Source of the DNA: Candidatus Eiseniibacteriota bacterium
GTDB lineage: Bacteria > Eisenbacteria > RBG-16-71-46 > CAIMUX01
NCBI GenBank assembly: GCA_903844735.1
Contig: CAIMUX010000001.1
Span: forward strand, 62,001-126,000
DNA: 64,000 nucleotides
Direction: 5' to 3'
Shown here: positions 1 through 15,939 of the stretch, in pieces
Numbering within the stretch: position 1 is the stretch's first letter
Layout of the letters: each line of letters starts with the position of its first letter
Position numbers and translations under genes: made by a program
Notes under the pieces: model-generated
Told to the model about the DNA's origin: nothing
Database searches by the model: none
The model's input: only the letters and a program-made list of their open reading frames with translations

Positions 1-1367
1 CAGGAGCGGCCCTCAGACGTCTCACGTTTTGGACCTCGCTCCGGCCGGGACCGGCGGCGTCCCAGATCGCCATCAAGCAGCTCGGCACCAACGGCGGCGG
101 CTTCTTCAACGCCAACTCCGCCCATCCGTTTGAGAACCCCACTCCGTTGAGCAACCTGCTTGAGATGCTGGCGATCCTCCTGATTCCGGCCGGCCTCTGC
201 TACACCTTCGGCCGCATGATCGGCGACACCCGCCAGGGATGGGCGATCCTCGCGGCGATGACGCTGATCCTGGCGGCCTTTCTGCTGGTCGGGATCCCGG
301 TCGAGAGCGCGTCCACGCCAACCCTCACGCAGGCGGGTCTGGACACGGTCGCGAGCCCGTTCCAGGCCGGCGGCAACATGGAAGGCAAGGAGACCCGCTG
401 CGGGATCGTCAACTCGGGGCTTTGGGCGGCAGCCACAACGGCCGCGTCGAGCGGGTCGGTCAACGCGATGCACGATTCGCTGACGCCCCTCGGCGGGCTG
501 GCGCCGATGGTCCTGATGCGACTGGGCGAGGTGGTCTTTGGCGGAGCGGGTTCTGGTCTCTACGGGATGCTCATCTTCGCTCTCGTCGCCGTCTTCGTGT
601 CGGGCCTGATGGTCGGACGGACCCCCGAATACCTCGGCAAGAAGATCGAGGCCTATGACATGAAGATGGCCTCCCTGGTGATCCTCATCTGCCCGATCCT
701 CGTTTTCGGCGGCACGGCGATCGCGGTCTCGTGCGCCCCGGGCCGCGGTGCGGTCTTCAATCCCGGCCCGCACGGGTTCAGCGAGATCCTCTATGCGCTC
801 TCCTCCGCCGGCAACAACAACGGGAGCGCCTTCGGCGGCTTGGGCGTCGGCGTCCCGCTCTACCACCTCCTGCTCGGCGTCGCGATGTTCGGCGCACGGT
901 ACTGGGTGATCGTTCCCACGCTCGCCCTGGCGGGATCGCTCGCCGCGAAAAAGAAAGTCCCGGCCACAGAGGGCACGCTCCCGACGCACGGTCCGACCTT
1001 CGTTCTGCTGCTGGTCGGGATCGTGCTGATCGTGGGGGCGCTCACCACCTTCTCCATCGCGAACGATGTCGCGAAGTACTTCGCGATCCTCCCGGCGGCC
1101 TTCGCGGGGGTCTACCCGGCCCTGGGCGGGCTCGACGTGATGAAGCTCACCAGCCCGCAAAGCGCCATCGTCTCGGCATTGGTCTTCAACGCGCTCATCA
1201 TCATGGCCCTGATCCCGATGGCGCTGGAAGGGGTCAAGTACCGGCCGATGAGCGCCTCGAGCCTGCTGAGGCGGCACCTGCTGCCGTACGGACTCGGCGG
1301 GCTCGTCGTGCCGTTTGTCGGGATCAAGCTGATCGACATGGCGCTCCACGCGGCCGGGTTCTACTAG
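1..1367 (+). CDS. kdpA: KdpA, potassium-translocating subunit (3' part, apparent frameshift near 50)
   Basis: Membrane subunit that binds and translocates K+ in the Kdp P-type ATPase. The N-terminal part lies outside the window. The protein is recognised by the filter-type loops [33 protein letters not shown] and [15 protein letters not shown], followed by hydrophobic helices to the C-terminus. From base 51 onward the gene reads in the frame of positions divisible by three. Bases 2-49 make KdpA-like sense ([15 protein letters not shown]) only one frame earlier, so one extra base sits around 47-50. This is either an assembly error or a real frameshift. An internal ATG at 147 lies within the family and is not a natural start. 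It is followed 8 nt later by kdpC. Confidence 0.93.
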
Positions 1368-1375
1368 GAGGAGCT

Positions 1376-2080
1376 GTGCGTAACGCACTCAACATCTCGG
1401 TCCGGTTGCTCGCGGTCTTCACGGTGATCACCGGACTCGCCTACCCCCTCGGGGTCACGCTCCTCTCCCGCGTGATCTTCCCCTTTCAGGCGGAGGGAAG
1501 CCTCGTCTACGAGGGACTTCCTGATGGTTCGCGCGGGGCCGAGGGCGCGGGAGCGCCCGAGAGAAGGCACGGAGACGAACCTGCAGGCGAAGGCGCCGGC
1601 GGACGCCCGGACCGCCGCGTGATCGGCTCCGCGCTGATCGGACAGTCGTTCACGGAGCCCCGGTACTTCTGGGGACGGCCCTCGGCGACCTCGCCCCCGT
1701 ACAACGCGTCCGCATCGACCGGATCGAACCTCGGTCCGTCGAATCCGGCGCTGGCGGACTCGATCCGGGCGCGCATCGAGAGGCTCCGCCGTCGGGACCC
1801 GCCAAGCGTGCGTCCCGTGCCGGTCGATCTGGTCACGGCCTCGGGGAGCGGACTCGACCCCCAGATCAGCCCCGCCGCGGCCTACTACCAAGTGCCAAGG
1901 GTTGCGCGGTCGCGTGGTCTGGACCCCGCAGCGGTGCGAAACCTGGTGGACCGGTGCCTGGAGCCCAGGCAGTTCGGACTCCTCGGGGAGCCGCGCGTGA
2001 ACGTGCTGAAACTGAACGTGGCCCTCGACGGGCTTGCGAAATCCCGCTGGGCTCCTCCCGTTTCGAGACACGGCGCCTAG
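1376..2080 (+). CDS. kdpC: KdpC, accessory subunit of the Kdp K+ ATPase
   Basis: Single-pass membrane subunit that assembles with KdpA and KdpB. I choose the GTG at 1376, preceded by AGGAGGAG, which gives 234 residues. One N-terminal membrane helix spans about residues 8-32. The family signatures follow: [56 protein letters not shown] and [11 protein letters not shown]. The protein is longer than the usual 190-200 residues because of a charged Gly/Glu/Arg-rich insertion at about residues 46-81, just before GSALIGQ. The gene directly follows kdpA. In the textbook order kdpB would lie between them, and it does not here. Confidence 0.95.
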
Positions 2081-2087
2081 AGGGAAG

Positions 2088-4781
2088 ATGAACGACGACC
2101 GACCCGATCCCGAGCGGCTGCTGGCCCGCATCCTGAAGGCGGAGGCGCCTCGAACCCAAGGGCGGCGGCGGGTGTTCCTCGGTGCCGCCGCGGGGGTCGG
2201 GAAGACCTACGCGATGATCGAGCAGGCGCGGCTGCGCCGGGGGCAGGGCATCGACGTGGCGGTCGGCTGGGTCGACACGCATGGCCGCCCCGAGACCGAA
2301 GCGCTTTTCGAAGGCCTCGAGATCCTGCCAGCTCGATCGTACGAGTACCGCGGAACGGTCCTGCAAGAGTTCGACCTTGACGCCGCGCTGGCCCGCAAGC
2401 CGCAGGTGCTCCTCCTCGACGAGCTGGCGCACAGCAACGCGCCAGGCGCGCGGCACGCGAAACGCCGGCAGGACGCGGAGGAGCTGCTTGGCGCGGGCAT
2501 CGACATCTACACGGCCGTCAACATCCAGCACCTGGAGAACCTGAACGACATCATCACGCAGACCACCGGCGTGGTGGTTCGCGAGACGGTCCCCGATCGG
2601 TTCCTCGATGACGCAGACGAGATCGAGCTGATCGACATCACGCCCGAAGATCTGCTGGAACGACTGAAGGAGGGGAAGGTCTACGTCCCCGCCCAGGCCG
2701 AACGCGCGATGCGCGGCTTCTTCACGCGCGGGAATCTTACGGCCCTGCGGGAGCTGGCCCTGCGGCGGGTCGCCGATCGAGTCGATGCCGAGCTGCGGAC
2801 CTACAAGGACGATCAGGCGATCGGCCAGGTCTGGCCTGTCAGCGAACGGCTCTTGGTCTGTGTGAGCGCGAGCCCGAGCGCGGCGCGGGTCGTCCGTGCC
2901 GCCGCGCGGATGGCCGCCGGTCTGCGCGCCGAGTGGATCGTCGCCTACGTCGAGCGTCCCGGAGACCCCCGCCAGTCCGAGGAGGACCGGGCCAGCATCT
3001 CCCATACGTTTCGCCTCGCCGAGCAACTCGGGGCGCAGACCGTCACGCTGACAGGACTCGACGTCAGCGAGGAGCTGCTCGCCCATGCGCGGGCGCAGAA
3101 CGTGACCAAGATCGTCGTCGGCAAACCGGCCCGGCCTTGGTGGCGCGATCGCCTCTTCGGCTCCGCGGTCGACACGCTGATCCGGGGAAGCGACGACATC
3201 GACGTCTACGTGATCCGCGGGGAGAAGGACGAGGGTCGTCCCCCGCTCCTGCCGCGCCTGCATCGGCAAAGCCCGGCCCGATCCTACCTGTGGGGAATCC
3301 TGGCGGTCGGGCTGGCGACTGGAATCTGCCGTCTCATGCACCACCACTTCGCGCCGGCCAACCTGATCATGGTGTATCTCCTCGAAGTCGCCTTCGTGGC
3401 GGCGGCGCTGGGACGCGGTCCGTCGCTGCTCGCATCACTGCTCAGCGTGGCGGCGTTTGACTTCTTCTTCGTGTCGCCCCATCTGACGTTCGCCGTCGCC
3501 GACAGCGAGTATTTCGTGACCTTCGGTGTCATGCTGATCGTGGCTCTGCTGATCAGCACGGCCGCCGTGCGCCTCCGGGACCAGGCCGAGACGCACCGGC
3601 AGCGCCAGGATCGGGCAGCGGCCCTCCACAAGATGATCCGTGAGTTCGCGCAGACGAGCACGATCGCCGAGGTGGTCACCAGCGTGGAACGGCACTGGGG
3701 GGAGGTCTTCGAGGGTGAGGTCTGGGTCCTGCTCCCGAACCCGGAGGGGCGCCTCGATCAGTCCGGAGGGATCACCTCCTCGTTCCCGCTCGACCCCAAG
3801 GAGCTGGTGGTCGCGCAGTGGGTTCACGAGCACGGACAGATGGCCGGGCTCGCCACGGCGACGTTGTCGGGCTCCAAAGCGATGAGCATCCCCCTGAAGA
3901 CGGCGCGCGGAGGGGTTGGCGTGATCTGTCTTTTCCCCGAGGGTGGGAGACAGTCCATCACCCCGGAGAAGCTCGACCTGCTCGGAGCCTCCGCGAACCA
4001 GACCGCCGTCGTCATCGAGCGCGCGCTTCTGGCGCAAGAGGCGCACGACAGCAAGATCCGCATCGAGGCGGAGCGGCTGCGCAACCTGCTCCTGAGTTCG
4101 GTCTCGCACGACCTGCGGACCCCGCTGGCCACCATCATTGGGGCGGCAAGCAGTCTCCTGGAGGCGGACGGACTGCTCATGATTGAGACCCGCGGCGAGC
4201 TGATCCAATCCATTCTCGATGAGGCCGAGCGCCTCAACCGCCTTCTTGGCAACCTCCTCAGCATGACCCGCCTCGAATCGGGCGGCGTCCACCTTCAGAA
4301 GGAGTGGCAGCCGCTCGAGGAGGTCGTCGGTGCCGCCCTCAATCACGTCGAGAAGGTCCTGCGCGGCCGCCCCGTGCTCGTCCGCGTTCCCGACGATCTG
4401 CCGCTCGTCCTGATCGACGGCGCGCTGATGGAGCAGGTTCTGGTGAACTTGCTCGAGAACGCGATCAAGTACACGGCGGAGGACACGGCGATCGAGGTCA
4501 CCGCACGGGCCGACGACGAGCAGGTGGTCGTCGACGTGGCCGACCGGGGACCGGGGCTTCCCGATGGAGACGAGGAGCGGATCTTCGAGAAGCATCATGG
4601 GGGACCCCAGGCCGGGGACCGGGGTGGCGTCGGCCTTGGCCTCTCCATTTGCCGTGGCATCGTCGAGGCGCACGGTGGGAAGATCCGGGCGATCAACCGC
4701 GATGGGGGCGGAGCGGTGTTTCGCTTCACGATCTCGGCGGGCATCCCACCGCCAAGTCTGGAGGCCATGGCAGGACCATGA
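2088..4781 (+). CDS. kdpD: KdpD, osmosensitive K+ channel sensor histidine kinase
   Basis: Membrane histidine kinase that controls kdp expression with KdpE. The ATG at 2088 follows an AGAGGGA ribosome-binding site and gives 897 residues, the normal length. Visible domains are an N-terminal KdpD domain with Walker A GAAAGVGKT (32-40), a Usp-like domain at about 245-370, the short DUF4118 membrane block at about 395-500, a GAF-like region, a HisKA motif SVSHDLRTP with phospho-acceptor His674, and an ATPase domain with NLLENAIKYT and GVGLGLSIC. It overlaps kdpE by four bases (ATGA), indicating translational coupling. Confidence 0.96.
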   Translation: MNDDRPDPERLLARILKAEAPRTQGRRRVFLGAAAGVGKTYAMIEQARLRRGQGIDVAVGWVDTHGRPETEALFEGLEILPARSYEYRGTVLQEFDLDAALARKPQVLLLDELAHSNAPGARHAKRRQDAEELLGAGIDIYTAVNIQHLENLNDIITQTTGVVVRETVPDRFLDDADEIELIDITPEDLLERLKEGKVYVPAQAERAMRGFFTRGNLTALRELALRRVADRVDAELRTYKDDQAIGQVWPVSERLLVCVSASPSAARVVRAAARMAAGLRAEWIVAYVERPGDPRQSEEDRASISHTFRLAEQLGAQTVTLTGLDVSEELLAHARAQNVTKIVVGKPARPWWRDRLFGSAVDTLIRGSDDIDVYVIRGEKDEGRPPLLPRLHRQSPARSYLWGILAVGLATGICRLMHHHFAPANLIMVYLLEVAFVAAALGRGPSLLASLLSVAAFDFFFVSPHLTFAVADSEYFVTFGVMLIVALLISTAAVRLRDQAETHRQRQDRAAALHKMIREFAQTSTIAEVVTSVERHWGEVFEGEVWVLLPNPEGRLDQSGGITSSFPLDPKELVVAQWVHEHGQMAGLATATLSGSKAMSIPLKTARGGVGVICLFPEGGRQSITPEKLDLLGASANQTAVVIERALLAQEAHDSKIRIEAERLRNLLLSSVSHDLRTPLATIIGAASSLLEADGLLMIETRGELIQSILDEAERLNRLLGNLLSMTRLESGGVHLQKEWQPLEEVVGAALNHVEKVLRGRPVLVRVPDDLPLVLIDGALMEQVLVNLLENAIKYTAEDTAIEVTARADDEQVVVDVADRGPGLPDGDEERIFEKHHGGPQAGDRGGVGLGLSICRGIVEAHGGKIRAINRDGGGAVFRFTISAGIPPPSLEAMAGP

Positions 4782-5482
4782 GCGACCCGGGAAAGATCGT
4801 GGTACTGGTGATCGAGGACGACGCGCAGATCCGCCGCTTCCTCCGCGCGAGCCTCGCGACCCAGGGATACCGGCTCTTGGAGGCGGTGACCGGCGAGGAG
4901 GGCATCCGTCTTGCCGCTTCCCAGCGGCCCGATCTGATCATCCTGGATCTGGGACTGCCCGACATGGACGGCCTGCGCGTGGCGCGCAGTGTCCGCAAGA
5001 TCGCGACGACCCCGATCGTCGTTCTCTCCGCCCGCGGCCAGGAGCGCGACAAGATCGACGCGCTCGACGCCGGGGCCGACGACTACGTGACAAAGCCGTT
5101 CGGCGTCGGCGAGCTGCTTGCACGGATGCGGGTCGCGCTGCGCCACGCCGCGCGGGAGGGGATGGATCCCAAGGACGAACCGGTCTTCGAGGTCGGCGAT
5201 CTCCACGTAGACCTCGTCCGACGGCACGTGCGCCTGGGCGGCGTGGAGATTCACCTTACCCCGATCGAGTACAAGATCCTCGCCGTGCTCGTCCGCCACG
5301 CGGGCCGGGTCATCACGCACCGGCAACTGCTCCAGGAGGTCTGGGGTCCTTCCTTCGCCAACCAGACGCACTACCTCCGTGTCTACATGCAGCAACTTCG
5401 AAAGAAGTTGGAAGAAACCCCGGCGCGCCCGCGCTACCTGCGGACCGAGCCGGGAGTCGGCTACCGCCTCGTCGACGAGTAG
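4778..5482 (+). CDS. kdpE: KdpE, OmpR-family response regulator
   Basis: Response regulator partner of KdpD, 234 residues. The receiver domain has the acidic pocket IEDDAQIRR, the phosphorylation site Asp57 in ILDLGLPDMDG, and the conserved Lys in DDYVTKPFG. The C-terminal winged helix ends in LRTEPGVGYRLVDE. The start ATG overlaps the kdpD stop. With kdpA, kdpC and kdpD it forms a single co-oriented operon. Just beyond its stop codon lies a partial copy of its own last 42 bases. Confidence 0.96.
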   Translation: MSDPGKIVVLVIEDDAQIRRFLRASLATQGYRLLEAVTGEEGIRLAASQRPDLIILDLGLPDMDGLRVARSVRKIATTPIVVLSARGQERDKIDALDAGADDYVTKPFGVGELLARMRVALRHAAREGMDPKDEPVFEVGDLHVDLVRRHVRLGGVEIHLTPIEYKILAVLVRHAGRVITHRQLLQEVWGPSFANQTHYLRVYMQQLRKKLEETPARPRYLRTEPGVGYRLVDE

Positions 5483-5576: not shown

Positions 5577-8500
5577 TCAGGGAGACGAGACCGACGGGGA
5601 TTCCCCCCAAGACGGGGCCGCGCCCGAGCACGGGTTTGGCGTGCAGGAAACTCCCCAGCCCATCCACGTGGACATCATCAGGCAAGCCGACTCCGTTGTC
5701 TGCACGCAGAAACCGAGCGAGGAGCAACAAGCACCGAGCACCGAGGCGCACGGATTCGGCGAGCACGTCGTTGCTTCCCCGAGCCAGTGTCCCGGAGACA
5801 GGCAGCCGTCGGCCTCCGTGACCGAGCATGACGCGCCGCTGATACAACAGGCTCCGGTCGGGGGCGCGCACGGGTCGGGAGAGCACGATGTTCCTCCACC
5901 CTGCCAGGTGCCTATACACTCCCACTCCATCTTCACCTCGCAGGTCTCCCACGCACAGCATGCGCCGACCGTCGCCGCGCACGGGCTCGGAGAGCAGGTT
6001 GTACCGGTGCCCATGAAGGTGCCCGGGAACATACACATGTCCTCGAACACCAACGTGCAGGATTCCGCGTCCATGCAGCAGGCACCCCCCAGGGCCGTGC
6101 ACGGCGTGGGCGTGCAGACGGTGCCCGCGCCCATCCACACACCCGGTGGGAGGCAGTCGGCTTCCTCGGTCACGTAGCAGTCATACGGCGTATAGCAGCA
6201 CGCTCCGGTAGGCTCGGGGCATGGATTCGGGGAGCAATCGGTTCCCGCGCCCATCCAGGCACTCGGCGCGACACACCGCGCCTCGGTCGCGACGGTACAC
6301 GTCGCATCGATTGCGCAGCAGGCTCCCCTCGGTTGGGCGCAGGGGTTCGGGCTGCACGACTCCAGCAGGGTCCAGACCGCGGGGCCCGCGCAGGCGGGTT
6401 CCTCGGTTACTGTGCAGGAACCGTCCGATGTGCAGCACGACCCCGACGGTCGCGGACACGGATTCGGGCCGCAGGTGCCGAACATGGTCCACGCGGATGT
6501 CGCCGAGCACGCCGCCAAGATGGTGAGAGTGCATCCTCCGTCCGGAGCGCAGCAGGAGCCGTTCGGCTGCGGGCACGGATTCGGGGCACACACTCCGAAC
6601 ATCGTCCAGGCCGCCGGTGCCAGGCATGCCGCCCGTGTGGTCGTCGTGCAGGCACCAGCCGGCGTGCAGCAGGCGCCGGTGGCCTCCAGGCACGGATTCG
6701 GCGAGCAGTCGTCGGTTGATCCGGTCCAGACGTTGGGAGACGCGCACCCCTCCGCCGCCGTCACGGTGCAGGATCCGGCGGGAGCACAACAGGCACCGTT
6801 CGGTTGCGGGCAGGGGTTCGGGCTGCACGTCCCCGATAGGGTCCAGACCGCCGGATCCATGCATTCGGTCTCTGTGGTCTGGGTACAGCGTCCGTCCGCT
6901 CGACAGCATGATCCCGGTGGTTGCGGACACGGATTGGGGCTGCACACCCCGGATAGCCGCCAAGTCTCCGGCGCCGCGCAGTCCGCCTGGATCGTCAGCG
7001 AACACACCCCCTCCGGCGTGCAGCAAGAGCCGTTGGGCCGTGGGCAGGGGTTCGGGCTGCACGATCCGAGCATCGTCCAGGTCGCAGGTGACACGCACGC
7101 CGCCTGCGTGGCGACAGAACAAGCGCCGGCCGGCGCGCAACACGATCCGGTCGGTGGCGGGCAGGGATTCGGGAGACACTCCCCGAACATTGTCCACACC
7201 GCCGGCGCGGCACACTCTGCGTGGGCCGCGATGGCACAGGCGCCGTCGGGTGCACAACAGGAACCGGTCGCCGCGGGGCAAGGGTTCGGCGCGCAATCGT
7301 CCACCGAACCGGTCCAGGCGCTCGGAGACACACATGCCGCCTCCACGGTCACCGTGCAGGTTCCGTTGAGCGCACAGCACGATCCGATCGGCTGCGGGCA
7401 CGGGTTTGGGCCGCACACCTCGAGCATGGTCCACGTCGATGGCGCCACACAGGCAGCCTGGGCCACCAGCGAGCAAGAACCGTCCGGCGCGCAGCAGGAG
7501 CCTGTCGGTTGCGAGCACGGATTCGGACTGCACGATCCGAACATCGTCCACGCCGCGGAGGGCGCGCACCCAGCCTCGCTGGTCGTCGCGCAGGAACCGT
7601 TCAGAGCACAGCACGATCCGGCGGGGTCAGAGCACGGGTTCGGCGAGCAGCCGGCGTCGGCGCCCCGCCAGACGCGCGGAGCCGCGCAGTTCGCCTGCGT
7701 CGTCACCGCACAGGACCCGTCGAGAGCGCAGCACGCGGCGGCGGGCTGCGGGCATGGGTTCGGAGCGCACACCCCGCATATTGTCCACGTCGCTGAGACC
7801 GCACATCCGGCCTGCTCCGTCACCGAGCAACTCCCGTCGACGGCGCAGCAGGAGCCCGTTGGACGGGGGCACGGATTGGGGCTGCACACGCCGAGCATCG
7901 TCCACGTCGCCGGTGTGAGGCACCCTCCCTGCGAGGTCAGGGTGCATGAACCGGAGGAAGCGCAGCAGGCCCCGGTCGCTTCGGGACACGGGTTCGGCGA
8001 GCAGCTGTGGACCGTCCCGCTCCAGGCGCTCGGCGACGTGCAGGTAACTTGTGTCGTCTGCGTGCAGATGCCGGCGGGGGAACAGCACGTTCCCGTAGGT
8101 TGCGCGCAGGGGTTCGGATCGCAAACGCCGGATCTCGTCCACATCGCCGGCGCCGCGCACCCCGTCTGGGACGTTAGGGTGCACGTGCCGGAGGGTGCGC
8201 AGCAGGATCCCGTTGGGGGCGGACACGGATTTGGACTGCACACGCCGAGTGTCGTCCATACCGCCGGGGCCTCGCACGCCGCTTCGGTCGTGACCGTGCA
8301 GGCGCCGTTCAGCGCGCAGCAAGCTCCGGTCGGCAGAGAGCACGGATTGGGAGAGCAGCCCGATCCGGCGCCGACCCAGGTATTCGGGGCTGCGCAGGCA
8401 ACCTCCGTCGTCACGGTGCAGGTTCCTCCCGCGGCACAGCACGCGCCGGTTGCGGCCTGAAGTCCGACGCCCATGCAAAGCACCGTCCCGTTTCCGGTCG

Positions 8501-8852
8501 TGATTTCGCAAGTCCTGGTGCCGGCTGCAGTGGGCAGGAAACGAACGGTGGCGCTGACAGCCTGCCCGGCACTGAGAGAGTACGGACCGCCGCCCGTGAG
8601 GAGAGAAAACTCGGGGCACGGGGAACTGATCGTGCCTCCAAAGGTCACGCCGCCCGCGTTGGTCAAGGTGAAGGTGCGTTCGACGGAATGCCCCACCTCG
8701 ACACTGCCAAAGTTCAGGCTGGCATCGTCGAGTTTCGGGGTCGGCGGTTGCGTTCCCTCGTCGTTGCCACAGCCCCTCAAGAAAAGCACGGTCACGATCA
8801 GAACCGTCAGCCGGGCCAGCCGGTTGGAGCGGGTTCCGAAACCGGTGTTCAT
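5577..8852 (-). CDS. Lipoprotein with an ASH/Hydin-like domain and 24 Cys-Cys repeats
   Basis: Predicted secreted lipoprotein of about 1,090 residues, function unknown. The ATG at 8852 has a GGGGGG ribosome-binding site. A GTG two codons upstream is also possible. A hydrophobic signal ends in LFLRGC, an atypical lipobox because of the Arg. Next comes a beta-sandwich-like region (about 42-133, SLNFGSVEVG...FTLTNAGG) resembling ASH/Hydin or choice-of-anchor domains. Then 24 repeats of about 39 residues follow, of the form TGxCCxxxGxCxxTxxxxC..W..xGxCxPNPCP, each with seven or so cysteines. The tail is short (PSWGESPSVSSP) and lacks a sorting module. A relative of the repeat occurs once in the beta-helix gene at 11914-13134. 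It probably forms a disulphide-rich surface stalk (inference). Confidence 0.85.
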   Translation of the reverse strand: MNTGFGTRSNRLARLTVLIVTVLFLRGCGNDEGTQPPTPKLDDASLNFGSVEVGHSVERTFTLTNAGGVTFGGTISSPCPEFSLLTGGGPYSLSAGQAVSATVRFLPTAAGTRTCEITTGNGTVLCMGVGLQAATGACCAAGGTCTVTTEVACAAPNTWVGAGSGCSPNPCSLPTGACCALNGACTVTTEAACEAPAVWTTLGVCSPNPCPPPTGSCCAPSGTCTLTSQTGCAAPAMWTRSGVCDPNPCAQPTGTCCSPAGICTQTTQVTCTSPSAWSGTVHSCSPNPCPEATGACCASSGSCTLTSQGGCLTPATWTMLGVCSPNPCPRPTGSCCAVDGSCSVTEQAGCAVSATWTICGVCAPNPCPQPAAACCALDGSCAVTTQANCAAPRVWRGADAGCSPNPCSDPAGSCCALNGSCATTSEAGCAPSAAWTMFGSCSPNPCSQPTGSCCAPDGSCSLVAQAACVAPSTWTMLEVCGPNPCPQPIGSCCALNGTCTVTVEAACVSPSAWTGSVDDCAPNPCPAATGSCCAPDGACAIAAHAECAAPAVWTMFGECLPNPCPPPTGSCCAPAGACSVATQAACVSPATWTMLGSCSPNPCPRPNGSCCTPEGVCSLTIQADCAAPETWRLSGVCSPNPCPQPPGSCCRADGRCTQTTETECMDPAVWTLSGTCSPNPCPQPNGACCAPAGSCTVTAAEGCASPNVWTGSTDDCSPNPCLEATGACCTPAGACTTTTRAACLAPAAWTMFGVCAPNPCPQPNGSCCAPDGGCTLTILAACSATSAWTMFGTCGPNPCPRPSGSCCTSDGSCTVTEEPACAGPAVWTLLESCSPNPCAQPRGACCAIDATCTVATEARCVAPSAWMGAGTDCSPNPCPEPTGACCYTPYDCYVTEEADCLPPGVWMGAGTVCTPTPCTALGGACCMDAESCTLVFEDMCMFPGTFMGTGTTCSPSPCAATVGACCAWETCEVKMEWECIGTWQGGGTSCSPDPCAPPTGACCISGASCSVTEADGCLSPGHWLGEATTCSPNPCASVLGACCSSLGFCVQTTESACLMMSTWMGWGVSCTPNPCSGAAPSWGESPSVSSP
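5620..8450 (-). repeat. 24 tandem coding repeats of about 118 bp
   Basis: These are direct repeats inside the lipoprotein gene, unit about 39-40 codons. I counted 24 units by the CC...PNPC landmarks. Most units carry W-T-M-x-G before the last Cys pair. Units 4, 10 and 15 carry a longer W-S/T-G form ending in a C-A/S-P-N-P-C motif and a Glu/Ala-Ala linker, which points to duplication of multi-unit blocks. The first unit and the last six are the most diverged. Confidence 0.9.
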
Positions 8853-9404
8853 GAGCACCCCCCATCATGAGAGCGATGGATCGGCGTCGACCCATCTGGA
8901 GAAATCAACTCCCAAGATGATCGGCGGGTCGGCGATCCAGCTTGATCGAGACCGTGCCCGCCGCAGTGGTCGCACCAAATCTCCAAACTCCACGCCGGAC
9001 GGAGGGTCCCGTGGCCGGAAAGATCGGCGACCGGACCATCGCGAAGTACCAGGATGTCATCGAGCTCGTCAGTGACGGCGGTCGCAGGAAGTGTCGGACG
9101 GGAGTGCGGGCAGTTTCCAGGATGTCGCGGTGTTGCGTCGATGGATGAACATGCTGATTCCCGTCGGGGGCGTGGTGCTGGCGGGCGCGGGTTGCACCCG
9201 CCACGCGGGCCTCGGTTCACGGACGGAGCGAGACCCCGAACCTGCGGCGGCGCGGACGCTGTAGGCCGGCGAGGTCACGGCGCTGTGGGGCGAAGATGTG
9301 CGCTGCGCGCGAACCGTGCGATCTCTGATCGACTCCCCGTGCACCCGGGAGAATGACGCGGAGATGATCGCCTCGTTGCGGCTCAAGGCCGCCAACGAGT
9401 GGCT
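8853..9404. other. Gene-poor spacer with one small interrupted frame
   Basis: No confident gene is seen. On the plus strand, ATG 9145 opens a 39-codon frame with a hydrophobic start and an early cysteine (VVLAGAGC), ended by TAG at 9262-9264. The same frame then stays open to a TAG at 9445-9447 and reads plausibly protein-like (ALWGEDVRCARTVRSL). It may be a small decayed lipoprotein gene, or chance. Its 3' end overlaps the DUF4143 fragment on the other strand. Confidence 0.3.
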
Positions 9405-9691: not shown

Positions 9692-10205
9692 ATGCTGTCC
9701 GCGTGCTCTTCGGGGCACCTGCCCCTCACCCCTGCGTTGCCATTTTGTGATCTGAGGCTGAAGAGCCCGAAACCCCTTGATAGAGCTTATCCTACGGAAT
9801 TCCGCTCGATCGGCGACCACGTCCGAAAGCGCCGTCTGGACCTCGGACTTCTGCAGCGGGAGGTTGCGTTGCAGATCGGGGTCGACAAGACGACGGTCTT
9901 CAATTGGGAGGCCGGAACCGCCGCTCCGAACATCCGGGCGATCCCTGGAGTGGTCCGGTTTCTCGGGTACGACCCCCGTCAGAGCCCCGAGGCCACCGTG
10001 AGCGCCCGGTGAACCCCGTCTGGTGAGGCCCGCGATCGATCTGGGCCGACTCATCCGCAACCTCCGTCAGAGACAGGGGCTCAGCATGGACGCTCTGGCT
10101 GGACTGCTCGGCGCCGACCCGAGCACCGTCCAGCACTGGAAGCAGCGCGGGCACAAGCTGCTCAGCAGGGCACCGGCAGCACGTAGCGAGTCGACGGCTC
10201 GCTAG
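9692..10205 (+). pseudogene. XRE-type HTH element, copy A (frameshifted)
   Basis: The first module reads IGDHVRKRRLDLGLLQ...VGVDKTTVFNWEAG, a classical XRE-like helix-turn-helix, and ends at a stop at 10012. The second module (RNLRQRQGLSMDALAGLL) continues in another frame from about 10023 to a stop at 10205. Copies B and C read through this point, so copy A has a frameshift near 10000-10023 and has lost its third module. The repeat itself begins earlier, at about 9611, matching 10989 onward in copy B at roughly 90 percent identity by eye. ATG 9692 is shared with copy B, but the conserved leader PALPFC lies downstream of it. Confidence 0.75.
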
Positions 10206-10555
10206 CACCCGAGGATCTCGTCGAGCACACCGCGCAGCGCCCGTCGATCTGACTCCACGAGCCGTCCGAGCTTTCGGATGACGAGTCCTTGCTCAATGCT
10301 GGCAAGCAGCGGCTTGAGTACGGACGGTTTGAGAAGCCCGGCCTCCTCCCATTCGCAGATCGCCGCTTCCCCCACCCTCGGCTCGTTGCGGACCTGGCTG
10401 GTGACAGCGAGGATGATCAGGTCTTGCCGCTCGCGGTGATACCGGTCCGAGCTGACGACAACCGCGGGGCGTTTCTTCGCGGTGCTCTGGTCGGTGAACG
10501 GAAATGGGACGAGGACGACGTCCCCGAACTCACAGCTGGTCGTAAGCGGCGTCAT
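10202..10555 (-). CDS. mazF: MazF/PemK-type toxin
   Basis: Predicted endoribonuclease toxin of a type II toxin-antitoxin pair, 117 residues. Family features are the GDVVLVPFPFTD strand, KKRPAVVVSS, a DLIILAVTSQVR strand, a LLKPSVLKP segment and a C-terminal helix LGRL...LDEIL. The ATG at 10555 is the start at which the domain begins. Longer upstream frames run through the antitoxin. It overlaps the upstream antitoxin gene by about 26 bases. Its stop codon overlaps, on the opposite strand, the stop codon of HTH copy A. Confidence 0.85.
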   Translation of the reverse strand: MTPLTTSCEFGDVVLVPFPFTDQSTAKKRPAVVVSSDRYHRERQDLIILAVTSQVRNEPRVGEAAICEWEEAGLLKPSVLKPLLASIEQGLVIRKLGRLVESDRRALRGVLDEILGC

Positions 10556-10751
10556 CGGGGTTGTCCCAGACCTGGTGGAACGAAGCCTCGGACAGCCCGG
10601 TCGCGGCACCGGCGAGTTGCCGGTCACTCTCGCGTTGGCTCAGAAAGTCGATGAAGTCCTCGACCTCCGCCGCCTTCTCGGGCCGGAGGTGGCGGATCTT
10701 CTCCAGGAGCTTCTGCTCCAAGTTGTTTGGTACCAAGGAGTGCACCTCCAC
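10530..10751 (-). CDS. Antitoxin of the MazF-type pair
   Basis: Small protein upstream of the toxin. Its core, LEKIRHLRPEKAAEVEDFI, resembles short antitoxins with a helical DNA-binding N-terminus. Its C-terminal tail (SEASFHQVWDNPDDAAYDQL) is typical of MazE/DUF2281-like antitoxins that insert into the toxin groove. The start is uncertain: GTG 10751, GTG 10745 or TTG at about 10736, the last with GGAGG eight bases upstream. The frame is open to 10937, but that part shows no recognisable protein. Confidence 0.75.
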   Translation of the reverse strand: MEVHSLVPNNLEQKLLEKIRHLRPEKAAEVEDFIDFLSQRESDRQLAGAATGLSEASFHQVWDNPDDAAYDQL

Positions 10752-10890
10752 GGCGTTCGACGGATCGTCCGCCCAGTTCTCGTCCCACGGCAAGCCTACC
10801 TCCCCAGCGTACGGCGCCGGAATCCCGCAGTCAACGTTGGGACGACACGCTAGTGTGATGGTGATAGCGGGCACGTCGGGGCGCCGCCTC

Positions 10891-11042
10891 TTACAGACGC
10901 TCGTTCTTCCCGTCGAGCTTGAGATCGTGGTGCACAAGGCGGTCGAGGAGCGGGGTGACGACGACCATGTCGTCGAGAAGCTGGGCCCAGTGCTCGATCA
11001 CGCAGTAGCGTGCGAAGACTCGCCGAGCCCACGCAGCAGCGG
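10891..11042 (-). pseudogene. IstB-like C-terminal fragment
   Basis: The minus strand reads WARRVFARYCVIEHWAQLL, then DDMVVVTPLLDRLVHH and a short tail to a TAA at 10891. The W-x-x-L-x-DD...LLDRL-HH pattern resembles the end of IS21-family IstB ATPases, where the last helix carries a LLDRL-HH motif. The frame begins just after a TGA at about 11043, so no N-terminus is present. The assignment rests on a short motif and is tentative. Confidence 0.4.
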
Positions 11043-11069: not shown

Positions 11070-11765
11070 ATGCTGTCTGCATGCTCTTCGGGTCACCTGA
11101 CCCTCACCCCTGCGTTGCCCTTTTGCAATCTGAAGCTGAAAAGCCCGAAACCCTTTGATAGAGCGTATCCTACGGAACTCCGGTCGATCGGCGACCACGT
11201 CCGAAAGCGCCGCCTGGACCTTGGCCTCCTGCAACGCGAGGTTGCGTTGCAGATCGGGGTGGACGAGACGACCGTGTTCAATTGGGAAGCCGGAACGGCG
11301 ACCCCGAGCCTCCGAGCGCTGCCGGCGGTGATTCGATTCCTCGGTTACGACCCCCCGAGGATCCCTGACGCCGCCGATTGGGGTGGTCTGGTTCGCTACC
11401 TTCGTCAGAGACATGGACTCAGCATGGACGCCCTTGCGGAACTGCTCAGCGTCGACCCGACGACCGTTCGGGGCTGGGAGCAAGGTGAACACAAGCCCCA
11501 GCCTCGGCTCTACGCCCGTCTGGTGGAGGTCCTCGGTCTGCCAGCCGCCACCGCGGATGCCGGAGCGGCCTTCGGCGAACGCTTCCGGACTGCCCGGCTG
11601 CGCGTCGGAGTGACGGAGCGGGAATTGGCCAAGCGGATCGGCGTCGCGCAGCAGGTGGTCTTGGACTGGGAAACAGGCAAGAGAACTCCGACCCTTTCGG
11701 ATGGCGTACCCCACCAGAAGACAAGCTCCCGGGGAATCGGGTCCGGGACTGAATCGCCGGGGTGA
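11070..11765 (+). CDS. Triple XRE-type HTH protein, element copy B
   Basis: The longest reading runs from ATG 11070 and gives 231 residues with three successive helix-turn-helix modules: SIGDHVRKRRLDLGLL..VDETTVFNWEAG, then LVRYLRQRHGLSMDAL..DPTTVRGWEQG, then FGERFRTARLRVGVTEREL..QQVVLDWETG. The third is followed by an unrelated tail (HQKTSSRGIGSGTESPG), so the 3' end looks cut. DNA 10989-11101 matches copy A, and 11102 onward matches copies A and C. No ribosome-binding site supports the start. It could be a decayed regulator or part of a mobile element. Confidence 0.65.
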   Translation: MLSACSSGHLTLTPALPFCNLKLKSPKPFDRAYPTELRSIGDHVRKRRLDLGLLQREVALQIGVDETTVFNWEAGTATPSLRALPAVIRFLGYDPPRIPDAADWGGLVRYLRQRHGLSMDALAELLSVDPTTVRGWEQGEHKPQPRLYARLVEVLGLPAATADAGAAFGERFRTARLRVGVTERELAKRIGVAQQVVLDWETGKRTPTLSDGVPHQKTSSRGIGSGTESPG

Positions 11766-11913: not shown

Positions 11914-13134
11914 TCACCGGCCCCCGTGCCTGAATCGCGCCTTGAGCCGACCCCACGAGGTGGTCTCGACGGGAGTGGGATGGCAAGGATTCGGCTCGCA
12001 CGCGGCTACGTCGCCCATGTAGCTGCCCTGTTCGTCCTCGCACTGTGATTGCTGCAGGAGGCGACAGGAACCGTCCGGGAAACAACAGGCGCCGGTCGGC
12101 GTCGGTCCGCCGCAGCCCTGCCCGAGCGCGCCGATCAACTGCCCGCAGGGGCTGTTCTCGGCCAGGCAGAGAGAGCTCGCATCGAGAGACCAGTCCCCCT
12201 CGGTGGTCCACCCGCAACCAACGGGCAAGCAGAAGCGCGGATCGATGTAGATGCAGCCGGCATCGTAGTTGACTGGGGCATGTGGTCTCACTCCCGTCGT
12301 ATCAATGTCGCTGCACGCCATATCGGCATCCCAACACCAAATCTCGTCTACGCCCGTCCAGGAGCAGTTGTCCCAAATGATGCAGCGTTCCAGAAAGAGG
12401 GGATTGATGGCGAGAATTCCGCCCCCGTCTTCACCGGCCCAGTTGGCGGATACCGTGCATCCGGCAAGCCGGTTAGGACCAGGACCGCCGAAACACACGC
12501 CGCCACCCTGCGCCCCTCCGTTTCCTGTAATGACGCAGTTCTCGATTTCGGCCTCGCCCATCATGAACCAAATCCCGCCGCCCCGCTCCGCCACGCAGCC
12601 GGAGATCACACAACCATCAACGACACCGGAGAAGACGATGAGAGCCAACCCTCCCCCATCGGCACCGGCTTGACATTCGAGAATCCGACAATCGACGATG
12701 GTCGGGTCGGAGAGGCCACAGAAGACTCCACCGCCTGACTGCATGTCGGTTCCGGGGCCTGCATAACCATGTTGGATTGTCAGCCCTTCGATTCGGGAGG
12801 CACGGGTCTCCCACTCATGCAGGTAGAATCCGCGATCCATCCTTTCGCAGTCGATGACCGTCTCATCAGGTCCTTCCCGTGACTTGACTATGAGATCCCG
12901 TCCACGAAACTCGATACCCCGATTACCATCTCCACGGTACGTACCAGGGCCAATCAGCACGGTGTCACCAGTCGCGCTGGCGTCGATCGCTGCCTGGATG
13001 GTGGAAAACTGCTCGGGCACCAACCGGGTGGCTGCCCAAGCCGACCCAGAAACACAAGCTAAGCCTATGGCTAGCCCACCAAACAGCAGGCGCCCGCGCC
13101 CGAACCCAGCCGCGCACTGAGACGAGGTCCTCAT
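11914..13134 (-). CDS. Secreted right-handed beta-helix protein with one GACC repeat
   Basis: Predicted exported protein of 406 residues. ATG 13134 follows GGGAG. The signal peptide ends near GSAWA-A. The body is a right-handed parallel beta-helix: it opens with FSTIQAAIDASATGDTVLI and GTYRGDG, followed by rungs such as RIEGLTIQHG, GGGVFCG, CVISGCVAERGGGI and CVITGNGGAQGGG. Near the C-terminus is a single unit TGACCFPDGSCR...CEPNPC, related to the 24-unit lipoprotein. It is followed by VETTSWGRLKARFR, a tail I associate with surface proteins of this kind (inference). No catalytic residues are evident. It is likely a surface or extracellular structural or carbohydrate-binding protein. Confidence 0.85.
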   Translation of the reverse strand: MRTSSQCAAGFGRGRLLFGGLAIGLACVSGSAWAATRLVPEQFSTIQAAIDASATGDTVLIGPGTYRGDGNRGIEFRGRDLIVKSREGPDETVIDCERMDRGFYLHEWETRASRIEGLTIQHGYAGPGTDMQSGGGVFCGLSDPTIVDCRILECQAGADGGGLALIVFSGVVDGCVISGCVAERGGGIWFMMGEAEIENCVITGNGGAQGGGVCFGGPGPNRLAGCTVSANWAGEDGGGILAINPLFLERCIIWDNCSWTGVDEIWCWDADMACSDIDTTGVRPHAPVNYDAGCIYIDPRFCLPVGCGWTTEGDWSLDASSLCLAENSPCGQLIGALGQGCGGPTPTGACCFPDGSCRLLQQSQCEDEQGSYMGDVAACEPNPCHPTPVETTSWGRLKARFRHGGR

Positions 13135-13191: not shown

Positions 13192-15939
13192 TCACCTTAC
13201 GATTATAGCAGGCATGCTCGTGGTCCTCCCAGCCCGATCGGTGGCGACGAGCCAGTACCGGCCGCTGGCGACACCTGCACCTTTGCCGTCCCGGCCGTCC
13301 CACAGAATTCTCGTGATGCCGCCGGGGAGGTTTCGATCGACCCAGGACTTGACGCACCGACCGTCGACCCCGACAACCCGGAGGTCCACGGCGCCCGCTG
13401 CCGGGAGCTGAAGGTCCCAAGCCACCCAGGATCCGCTCGGGTTCGGACGACCGCGTGTGAGCGTGAGCTCGGGGACCAGAATTCTGCGATCCCCGACCCC
13501 GGTGAGGCTGCCATGCCAGTAGGAGGAGTCCTGGCTGGCTTCATGCCCCGCTCCCACGTCCCAGATTCGCAGAGTGATCGTCCAGAGGCCGTCGTGAGGA
13601 AGGTTGTAGGTCTGTCTGATCGACGGCGTGGAGTCCGGCCTCTCAGTGCAGAAGCGATCCTGAATGACGCGGACATCCGACAGTCCAGGCATCGACGCAA
13701 CGGCTCGAACTCGTCCGGAGTGTGTATCCCCGTCTTCGAAGCGGAGGGATAGTGTATCCGGGACCAGGCCACCGGAACTCGGCATGATCACAAGGTCGGT
13801 GATGACGGGCGCCTCTGTGTCGGCCCGGAGCGAGTCACCATGCGACGTCCCGCCGTTGCGTTTCCAGGAGTAGGCACCGGTGGTGGCGGGGAGGCCATTG
13901 TAGTCGATGCCGTCCCACAGGACCCGCCCTCGGTCACTGCTCCACCTGGAACCTGTCAGCCGCTTGACCCAGGACTGGTTGGCGTTGTAGATGTCGATAC
14001 GGTCTCCGAGCCCCACGGAGTCTCCCTCGCCGACCAGCATCGACATGTACGAATCCGGATGGTCGATGGGATCGTAGACGCCGTCCGGAGGATCGTCCGA
14101 GTCCCTCCAGCCGATGTGGGCGCGGGTGTAGTCGCACAAGACCCCGGAAAACGTGCTGTCCATGATGCATGGCACCTGTGGATCCACGCAGGCGATGTCG
14201 TTGCCGTTCACCTCGCCAAGGTATCCGCACAGCGATTCGCAGCTCGTTGCATAGTATTCGTCGGCGGCTCCGAAGATGTGACAGGCCTCGTGCATGGCTA
14301 CGGCACTGAGGTCGTCGGGCCAGTAGGTGTAGCCGCCGATGTAGGGCAGGGTCACGCGCGGCCCGTAGAAGCTCCCGAATCCGACCCACCCATCCGAAAA
14401 CCGGTGATCCGGGTCGCAGCTATCGTCGATCACGAAGGTGATGAACCACCAGTCGTAGGGTGTCTGGGGCCGGGCTCTCCGGGAGTTGCAGAGCTCGGCC
14501 ATCCTCGTCGTGTAGCTGCCCTCCGTGAAGCCGAGGTCCGTCAGGGCTTCGCTGACCCAGGTGGTGTCACCATGGGCTCGCTGGATCGGCTCCACCGTCG
14601 TGGCCAGCGGTGGCGGGGTCTCGGAGATCCAGAACGTCGCATACGGCTCTGGAGAGAGATTTGCGAGGCTCGTGAGCCCTTGTCCGACCTCGAAGACCGC
14701 CTTGTTCCGCTCCGCTGCCGTCCAGTCCTCGGGGTAGTTCGGGGCCGCGCAGGTGCCCGTCTGCTGGCTCTCCATCAGGAGCACCGAGACCCCGATGTCT
14801 CCCAGCATGTAGACCGACGTCTGTCGTTCCGGATCGGCCGGAACCCTGTCGTTCCGCTCCTCACCCACCTCGTAGTGGATGCAGCTGTCTCCTTGCGCGA
14901 ACCCGCCTCTACCGCTATCCGGTGGCTCTGCCGTCAAGAGCTCGTTCCAGACGCGGGCGGCGAAGCCCGGGTCGCCTGGCCCGAGGTCGTCGGCCTCCAG
15001 ATCGGACCGAGCAGAGATCGCCGCGTCGGTCACGAGATTGACCCGGTTGTCTTCGCTCAATGCGTCCCGCTGCGTCTGGCTCGCCCGACAGATCAGGCCG
15101 TCGGGCGTGAGACCGACGAGGATCCGGAGTCCGTACTCGGACCGAAGGGCCTGTGCCTCGACAGCGAAGGTGCTGTCGGCAGTCGTCGTCATCTCGACGA
15201 AGGTCAGATCCCCGGAAGAACTCGGAGCGTCCAACCCGCCGGCCTGCTCTACCTCATCCTCCGGGGGCGTCTCCTCGTTGTTGTCCCACCCCTCGCCCCC
15301 TTCCGCTTGGTCCCCGCCAACCGGGCATGGGAGCCCTCCGGCGGTCCCGAGCCCCAGCCGCCCATACCCCGCAATCGTGTCGACCTCAGCCGGGAATGCG
15401 TCGTCCACGAACACGCCATGCTGCAACGGATGTGGAATCAGCGAGACCGAAGTCGAGTCCTCGGCGTCCTGCTCCGAGTACGCATAGCCAGCGAACCAGT
15501 AGACTTCGGTGAGCAAGCCGGTCTGGGCGCCAGTGGTCCAAGACTGACTGGTACCGGTGCCGGCCGCCGGCCAGGTACCGTCCGATAGCTCGAAGTCAGC
15601 GCACGTACTGCGGGCGGCCATCATGAACTTCGTCGGGTCGTAGTCGATCCCGAACGAAAGCGCTTTCAGGCGCGGGCTACTCTCGGACGGGAAGGCCGCG
15701 AGGACATGGAACACGATCTTCTTCCCAGGATCCCAGGCAACGCTCGTGACGGCGGCCGAACAGGAGTCCAGCGCCGACATCCCGCAGTAGTTCTGGATGT
15801 CGCTGGTGAATACTAACGAAGGGTTCGCGTGGAGAATGAGGGTACCGCCTTCGTTCGGCCCAGCCGCGGCCGATGGTGGAAGCAGCCAGGGAACGATCAG
15901 GATCGCGGACGCAAGAAGCACAGCACGCAATCGGTTCAT
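13192..15939 (-). CDS. Secreted metzincin-motif protein with FlgD-like C-terminal module
   Basis: Predicted exported protein of 915 residues. The start at 15939 has GGAGGG upstream and a clear signal peptide. Residues about 27-200 form a domain opening with GGTLILHANPSLVFTSD and NYCGMSALDSCSAAVTSVAW, which is duplicated in the gene at 17755. The middle contains HEACHIFGAADEY with His550, Glu551, His554, Gly557 and Asp560, a HExxHxxGxxD zinc motif like that of snapalysin-type metzincins. Many cysteines suggest disulphides. The C-terminus (about 820-915) is a FlgD/T9SS-like module: RPNPSGSWVAWDL, DLRVVGVDGRCVKSW and GVASGRYWLVAT. It is probably a surface-delivered metallopeptidase. Peptidase activity is inferred from the motif only. 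Confidence 0.85.
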   Translation of the reverse strand: MNRLRAVLLASAILIVPWLLPPSAAAGPNEGGTLILHANPSLVFTSDIQNYCGMSALDSCSAAVTSVAWDPGKKIVFHVLAAFPSESSPRLKALSFGIDYDPTKFMMAARSTCADFELSDGTWPAAGTGTSQSWTTGAQTGLLTEVYWFAGYAYSEQDAEDSTSVSLIPHPLQHGVFVDDAFPAEVDTIAGYGRLGLGTAGGLPCPVGGDQAEGGEGWDNNEETPPEDEVEQAGGLDAPSSSGDLTFVEMTTTADSTFAVEAQALRSEYGLRILVGLTPDGLICRASQTQRDALSEDNRVNLVTDAAISARSDLEADDLGPGDPGFAARVWNELLTAEPPDSGRGGFAQGDSCIHYEVGEERNDRVPADPERQTSVYMLGDIGVSVLLMESQQTGTCAAPNYPEDWTAAERNKAVFEVGQGLTSLANLSPEPYATFWISETPPPLATTVEPIQRAHGDTTWVSEALTDLGFTEGSYTTRMAELCNSRRARPQTPYDWWFITFVIDDSCDPDHRFSDGWVGFGSFYGPRVTLPYIGGYTYWPDDLSAVAMHEACHIFGAADEYYATSCESLCGYLGEVNGNDIACVDPQVPCIMDSTFSGVLCDYTRAHIGWRDSDDPPDGVYDPIDHPDSYMSMLVGEGDSVGLGDRIDIYNANQSWVKRLTGSRWSSDRGRVLWDGIDYNGLPATTGAYSWKRNGGTSHGDSLRADTEAPVITDLVIMPSSGGLVPDTLSLRFEDGDTHSGRVRAVASMPGLSDVRVIQDRFCTERPDSTPSIRQTYNLPHDGLWTITLRIWDVGAGHEASQDSSYWHGSLTGVGDRRILVPELTLTRGRPNPSGSWVAWDLQLPAAGAVDLRVVGVDGRCVKSWVDRNLPGGITRILWDGRDGKGAGVASGRYWLVATDRAGRTTSMPAIIVR

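Follow-up and report, generated by a model that had tools for sequence, protein, structure and literature searches.

Of the known systems, the Cys-rich stalk of TraA from Myxococcus xanthus is the one that the array reported here would most resemble in its working. The Cys-rich repeats of TraA have been proposed to form a rigid stalk for the presentation of a domain (PMC3325183); some of them are individually dispensable, and the distal ones are essential (PMC6372800). Bacterial fibrillar adhesins likewise have long stalks of repeats from which a domain would project (PMC9210967). We analyzed a window of 64,000 nucleotides from a genome of Candidatus Eisenbacteria (assembly GCA_903844735.1, contig CAIMUX010000001.1, positions 62,001 to 126,000), in which a gene on the reverse strand encodes a protein that is nearly all Cys-rich array. 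In TraA (TIGR04201 plus MYXO-CTERM), as in the Eisenbacteria arrays, Cys-rich tandem repeats adjoin the anchoring or sorting end. However, the TraA repeats are about 20 aa long and differ in sequence, and the window protein has a lipobox instead of MYXO-CTERM. TIGR04201 had no match at E ≤ 1, either to the whole protein or to any of 111 three-unit segments of the arrays, and the likeness would therefore be one of function and not of membership. In contrast to the fibrillar adhesins, no adhesive domain was recognized in the window protein.

The window protein runs from a signal peptide with the lipobox FLRGC through a domain of ~90 aa and 24 tandem units to 17 further residues and the stop codon (Table 1). 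The units are contiguous over positions 8447-5628, and their number agrees with the 24 Cys-Cys repeats of the preliminary description, whose figure of about 165 Cys was an overcount: there are 149 in the whole protein and 145 within the array, with a seventh Cys in unit 6 (Cys content, 13 to 15%). Each unit holds six Cys with the spacing CC-x5-C-x7-C-x11/12-C-x4-C. Nine units are 40 aa long, 13 are 39 aa, one is 37 aa, and the last is 36 aa if measured up to its final Cys. The units vary in the loops from Cys 3 to Cys 5, while the Cys stay fixed. Because the mean nucleotide identity between units is just 57%, Tandem Repeats Finder detected only 1.9 copies, at 73%. Outside the Cys codons, the units differ by 0.40 at first, 0.33 at second, and 0.58 at third codon positions, and this third-position excess shows that the amino acids of the array are under selection. 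The protein contains no CxxCH motif, the hallmark by which a multihaem cytochrome would be recognized, and a single CxxC; the domain HMM search found no obvious effector domain besides the array.

Table 1. Positions, in window coordinates, of the repeat gene, its parts, and one neighbouring gene
Feature	Position (strand)	Remarks
Repeat lipoprotein CDS	5577..8852 (-)	1091 aa counted from ATG; the ORF 5577-8858 opens at GTG 8858
Signal peptide with lipobox FLRGC	8763..8852 (-)	Cys predicted to be lipid-modified: residue 30 when numbered from GTG
ASH/HYDIN-type Ig-like domain (choice-of-anchor D like), aa 34-120	8499..8759 (-)	Sub-threshold HMM and predicted fold
Units 1-19	6207..8447 (-)	Two interspersed types; long type at 1, 4, 7, 10, 15, and 19
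Units 20-24	5628..6206 (-)	C-terminal end of array; divergent, long-type or irregular
C-terminal tail SGAAPSWGESPSVSSP-stop	5577..5627 (-)	No enzyme head; SWG where the phylum tag would start, remainder not matching
Secreted beta-helix neighbour	11914..13134 (-)	One six-Cys unit; 8 aa later the C-terminal tag TTSWGRLKARFR(HGGR)

Several other genes of the window were annotated in passing. Convergent with the repeat gene, positions 1-5482 (+) hold what appear by eye to be kdpA/kdpC fragment-like genes, kdpD, and kdpE (potassium transport and a two-component regulator). A MazF/PemK-type toxin look-alike with a small upstream partner, also seen by eye only, occupies 10202-10937 (-), and near-duplicate helix-turn-helix-like ORFs, again by eye, flank this pair at 9692-10012 (+) and 11070-11765 (+), perhaps through a segmental duplication. 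The product of the gene at 13192-15939 (-) is secreted and has a FlgD-like domain at its C-terminus (PF13860, E = 5e-8); an HExxH motif, AMHEACHIFGAADEYY, was noted in it by eye, and it is possibly a metalloprotease.

In the window lipobox, LRGC follows a hydrophobic stretch; Leu at -3, Gly at -1, and the Cys are present, and the Arg at -2 is atypical. Homologues have LPGC, LAGC, or VVGC, and the array-bearing lipoproteins of the genome begin alike (xGCGxDxxPT). The window Cys lies at the same place as the LLPGC of the paralogue L051. The lipid anchor of the preliminary description is likely, and the protein is probably a lipid-anchored lipoprotein. The domain that follows scores below the curated cut-offs of the ASH-related HMMs, with 41.1 of 45 bits for NF012200 (E = 2e-10), 21.3 of 25.5 bits for PF22544 (E = 3e-4), and 16.1 of 27 bits for PF15780. 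Its predicted model reached a pLDDT of about 97 (56-70 for the attached unit in that alignment), and Foldseek matched it in the PDB to HYDIN (2e6j) and the SPD-2 domain of CEP192 (9fh8), with E = 2e-6 and prob 1.00, and to ciliary central-pair proteins, all with E of about 1e-6. The ASH/PapD-like fold, suggested beforehand as an ASH/Hydin-like domain, is thus confirmed by the predicted structure. The domain shares this fold with choice-of-anchor D and ASH domains (HYDIN, CEP192 SPD-2), but differs from them in its sub-cut-off scores and in that only one copy is present, at the foot of a Cys array.

Two types of unit make up the array. In addition to the long-type units that Table 1 lists among the first 19, units 20, 21, 23, and 24 are of the long type, and all others in units 1-19 are short. 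The short-type units form one clade in the unit tree (UFBoot 97), and the types also differ outside the segment that defines their length (permutation P below 0.001). The distinct type previously placed at positions 4, 10, and 15 is therefore real but incompletely listed, those positions being a subset of the long type. The accompanying proposal that blocks of five or six units had been duplicated was not borne out: uncorrected P values were 0.68 for lag 5 and 0.052 for lag 6 in an analysis of 15 lags across units 1-19, and the unit trees lent the proposal no support. The best lag was 3 (P = 0.027), which is not significant after correction because 15 lags were tested. Short units at matched triplet positions were no more similar than unmatched ones (P = 0.39), and any three-unit rhythm in the array is at most weak. 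For 13 of the 24 units, the nearest nucleotide neighbour lies in another array of the genome, and the window array is therefore old; unlike in the window, units are nearly identical within the arrays of L051, L053, and L057.

The six-Cys module is uncatalogued, with no Pfam, NCBIfam, or PDB match. Hits to Pfam were weak and scattered, no family matching more than 4 of 111 three-unit segments, and no NCBIfam model recognized the module. Against the PDB, phmmer found no match at E ≤ 1, the best profile match (E = 0.063) was an unrelated 22-residue stretch, and Foldseek returned nothing at E ≤ 10 for a three-unit model; matches of the module model in the viral fold library appeared only at E > 6. 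Our literature search found no paper on Eisenbacteria with Cys-rich or tandem repeats. Structure prediction of two to three units had been proposed as a check, and AlphaFold, supplied with an alignment of a three-unit segment with 110 others, produced a confident small-beta model with short beta strands in each unit (pLDDT 93.2; pTM 0.65, the relative orientation of units not being fixed). Of 848 distinct, well-covered units, 798 keep all six Cys, and the individual Cys columns are 91-99% conserved; the final Cys seems to be missing from 40 units because of a gap where the alignment ends. An attempt to deduce disulphide pairing from paired Cys loss was uninformative because the Cys are nearly never lost.

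The module is also widespread. The source genome contains about 182 units in 47 ORFs, according to a scan of the fetched array regions whose counts are approximate. Within the phylum, all 11 genomes examined from the window's order have the module; elsewhere in the class, 5 of 36 genomes have it, each with one or two matches. Relatives outside the genome were located with a composite query, which biases the loci found toward the composite; this search reached Phycisphaerae and other Planctomycetota, together with a few records from Acidobacteria, Zixibacteria, and Myxococcota/Deltaproteobacteria and one labelled Proteobacteria. Many of the Phycisphaerae carriers end, by eye, in dockerin-like sequences.

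Many exported proteins of the phylum that are otherwise unrelated, including L170-L199 and the beta-helix neighbour in the window, end in a tag with the consensus PTxxx(S/T)WGx(I/V)Kxx(Y/F)R-stop. Most of them start with a signal peptide (by eye), and the lipobox flagged in the beta-helix neighbour lies within an ordinary signal peptide. When the phylum was searched with the tail alignment, all 47 Eisenbacteria genomes had matches at E ≤ 1, with 29 in the source genome, 10-74 in most others, and 1-5 in ten genomes, eight of which are from one family. Of 64 distinct tags in the fetched loci, 59 run right up to the stop and the others finish at most 6 aa short of it; the search expression did not impose this position. 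The best tag match in 20 module-carrying genomes of other phyla had only E = 0.097, and no NCBIfam model matched the tags tried. The other two reading frames of the window gene were read by eye for a frameshifted tag, and no convincing match was seen. The tag is a candidate sorting signal.

Arrays tend to adjoin the presumed anchors, as seen in placement classes assigned by eye and with regular expressions. Eleven lipoprotein ORFs have an array whose start lies 10-13 aa downstream of the lipobox Cys. An ASH domain intervenes in the window protein (108 aa) and in L051 (111 aa), and another domain does so in L068 (126 aa). At the opposite end, the last recognized unit stops 8-9 aa before the tag in five of nine tag-bearing ORFs, and in at least two others (L053 and L060) an irregular further unit fills the gap between array and tag. 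In five ORFs, 67-68 aa separate the array from the end part of a FlgD-like domain, so that the domain itself follows directly on the array. An array-adjoining lipobox and the C-terminal tag were never seen together in one array-bearing ORF of the genome. Arrays also occur mid-protein in other carriers, notably in Phycisphaerae.

What lies beyond the array varies. L052 carries an FGE-sulfatase-like head (PF03781, E = 1e-42). L051, with 14 units, and its sister-genus orthologue G001:C17 (L236; 2168 aa), with 37, share with the window protein the order of lipobox, ASH domain, and six-Cys array, but continue into a C-terminal metzincin-like head with HExxHxxxxxH, in which HExIGHNxDxxH and MSYC were recognized by eye; a Pfam search of the head matched no peptidase family. 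This domain is absent from the window protein, whose ORF stops 17 aa past the last Cys of unit 24. In L051, short and long units form two separate runs. The ASH domains are 50% identical between L051 and G001:C17, 54% between L051 and the window protein, and 41% between G001:C17 and the window protein. By these values the more divergent copy is that of the window, whose protein has the look of a diverged paralogue that lacks the head; no headless orthologue of it was found in the related genomes searched.

Based on these observations, we propose that the window gene probably encodes a surface lipoprotein with a disulphide-braced stalk, here without its enzyme head. The main argument is the regular placement of arrays beside anchors with varied heads, FGE-sulfatase-like or metzincin-like, beyond them, from which a disulphide-rich rod, as the preliminary description had it, appears to be the best reading. 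Its description as an unusual surface structure must be qualified, given that about 47 ORFs of the genome carry the module and that there are close relatives with 14 or 37 units and an enzyme-like head. In the proposed arrangement, the lipobox Cys would anchor the protein, the ASH-type beta-sandwich would sit beside the anchor, and 24 independently folding six-Cys modules with short Pro-rich linkers would extend away from the membrane, possibly as a rigid structure. Each module would presumably be braced by three disulphides made by a VKOR-DsbA-type oxidase. Two ORFs of the genome, 690 and 697 aa long, combine VKOR (PF07884) with Thioredoxin_4 (PF13462); we took the identity of these ORFs from their positions and lengths. 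Oxidative folding is therefore plausible. In the closest relatives, the same stalk bears the metzincin-like domain at its far end. The window copy may have lost this head or never had it, and its bare stalk could be a spacer, a matrix or adhesive element, or decaying.

Alternatively, the array itself could be the working part, a binding surface of an adhesin, ligand-binding, or recognition kind comparable with LDL-receptor modules. The variable loops between fixed Cys, the two interspersed unit types, and the lack of another obvious effector domain would suit such a role. We nevertheless regard it as unlikely, since arrays adjoin anchors in many proteins whose heads differ widely, and since a range from 14 to 37 units between orthologues, found on comparing repeat number in related genomes as had been suggested, fits a spacer better. 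It is less probable again that the gene is merely the decaying remnant of a stalked metzincin-like lipoprotein after 3' loss. The head is present in L051 and in the sister-genus orthologue, the divergent tail retains a non-matching SWG remnant, the lipobox is atypical, and a headless orthologue was not found, all of which such decay would explain; yet 1091 codons remain open, all 24 units retain six Cys, and the third-position excess persists. A metallothionein-like surface metal store or redox buffer would account for the Cys content, but is very improbable in view of the fixed long-range Cys spacing, the single CxxC, the few His, the confident predicted beta fold, and an export pathway in a genome that encodes a disulphide oxidase.

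Repeat number or type pattern might also be a product of assembly collapse or expansion, and Cys arrays with long exact repeats do fragment the assembly of the source genome. A contig end is no more than 300 bp away from 15 of the 40 array places listed, whereas 1.6% would be expected to lie so close, and stretches of 116-128 bp recur exactly at several contig ends that fall within Cys arrays (e.g. L054/L057, L063/L064, and L067/L074). Some ORFs are therefore halves of one gene, which is why the genome-wide ORF and unit counts are approximate. For the window array, however, this explanation is rejected as next to impossible: the array is internal to a contig of 143,520 bp, and the longest exact repeat within it measures 22 bp, compared with 90-129 bp in other arrays of the genome.

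If the stalk reading is right, an unrecognized modular domain would join the few known bacterial disulphide-rich stalks, and the 14- and 37-unit orthologues with the same ends would provide a natural test of the effect of stalk length. We also suggest, more tentatively and with the odds slightly against it, that module and tag together constitute an unrecognized surface-display system of Ca. Eisenbacteria, in which a lipobox or the tag would provide the anchor and stalks of variable length would separate it from the working domain. If so, the tag would be a new handle on the sorting of exported proteins in a whole uncultured phylum.
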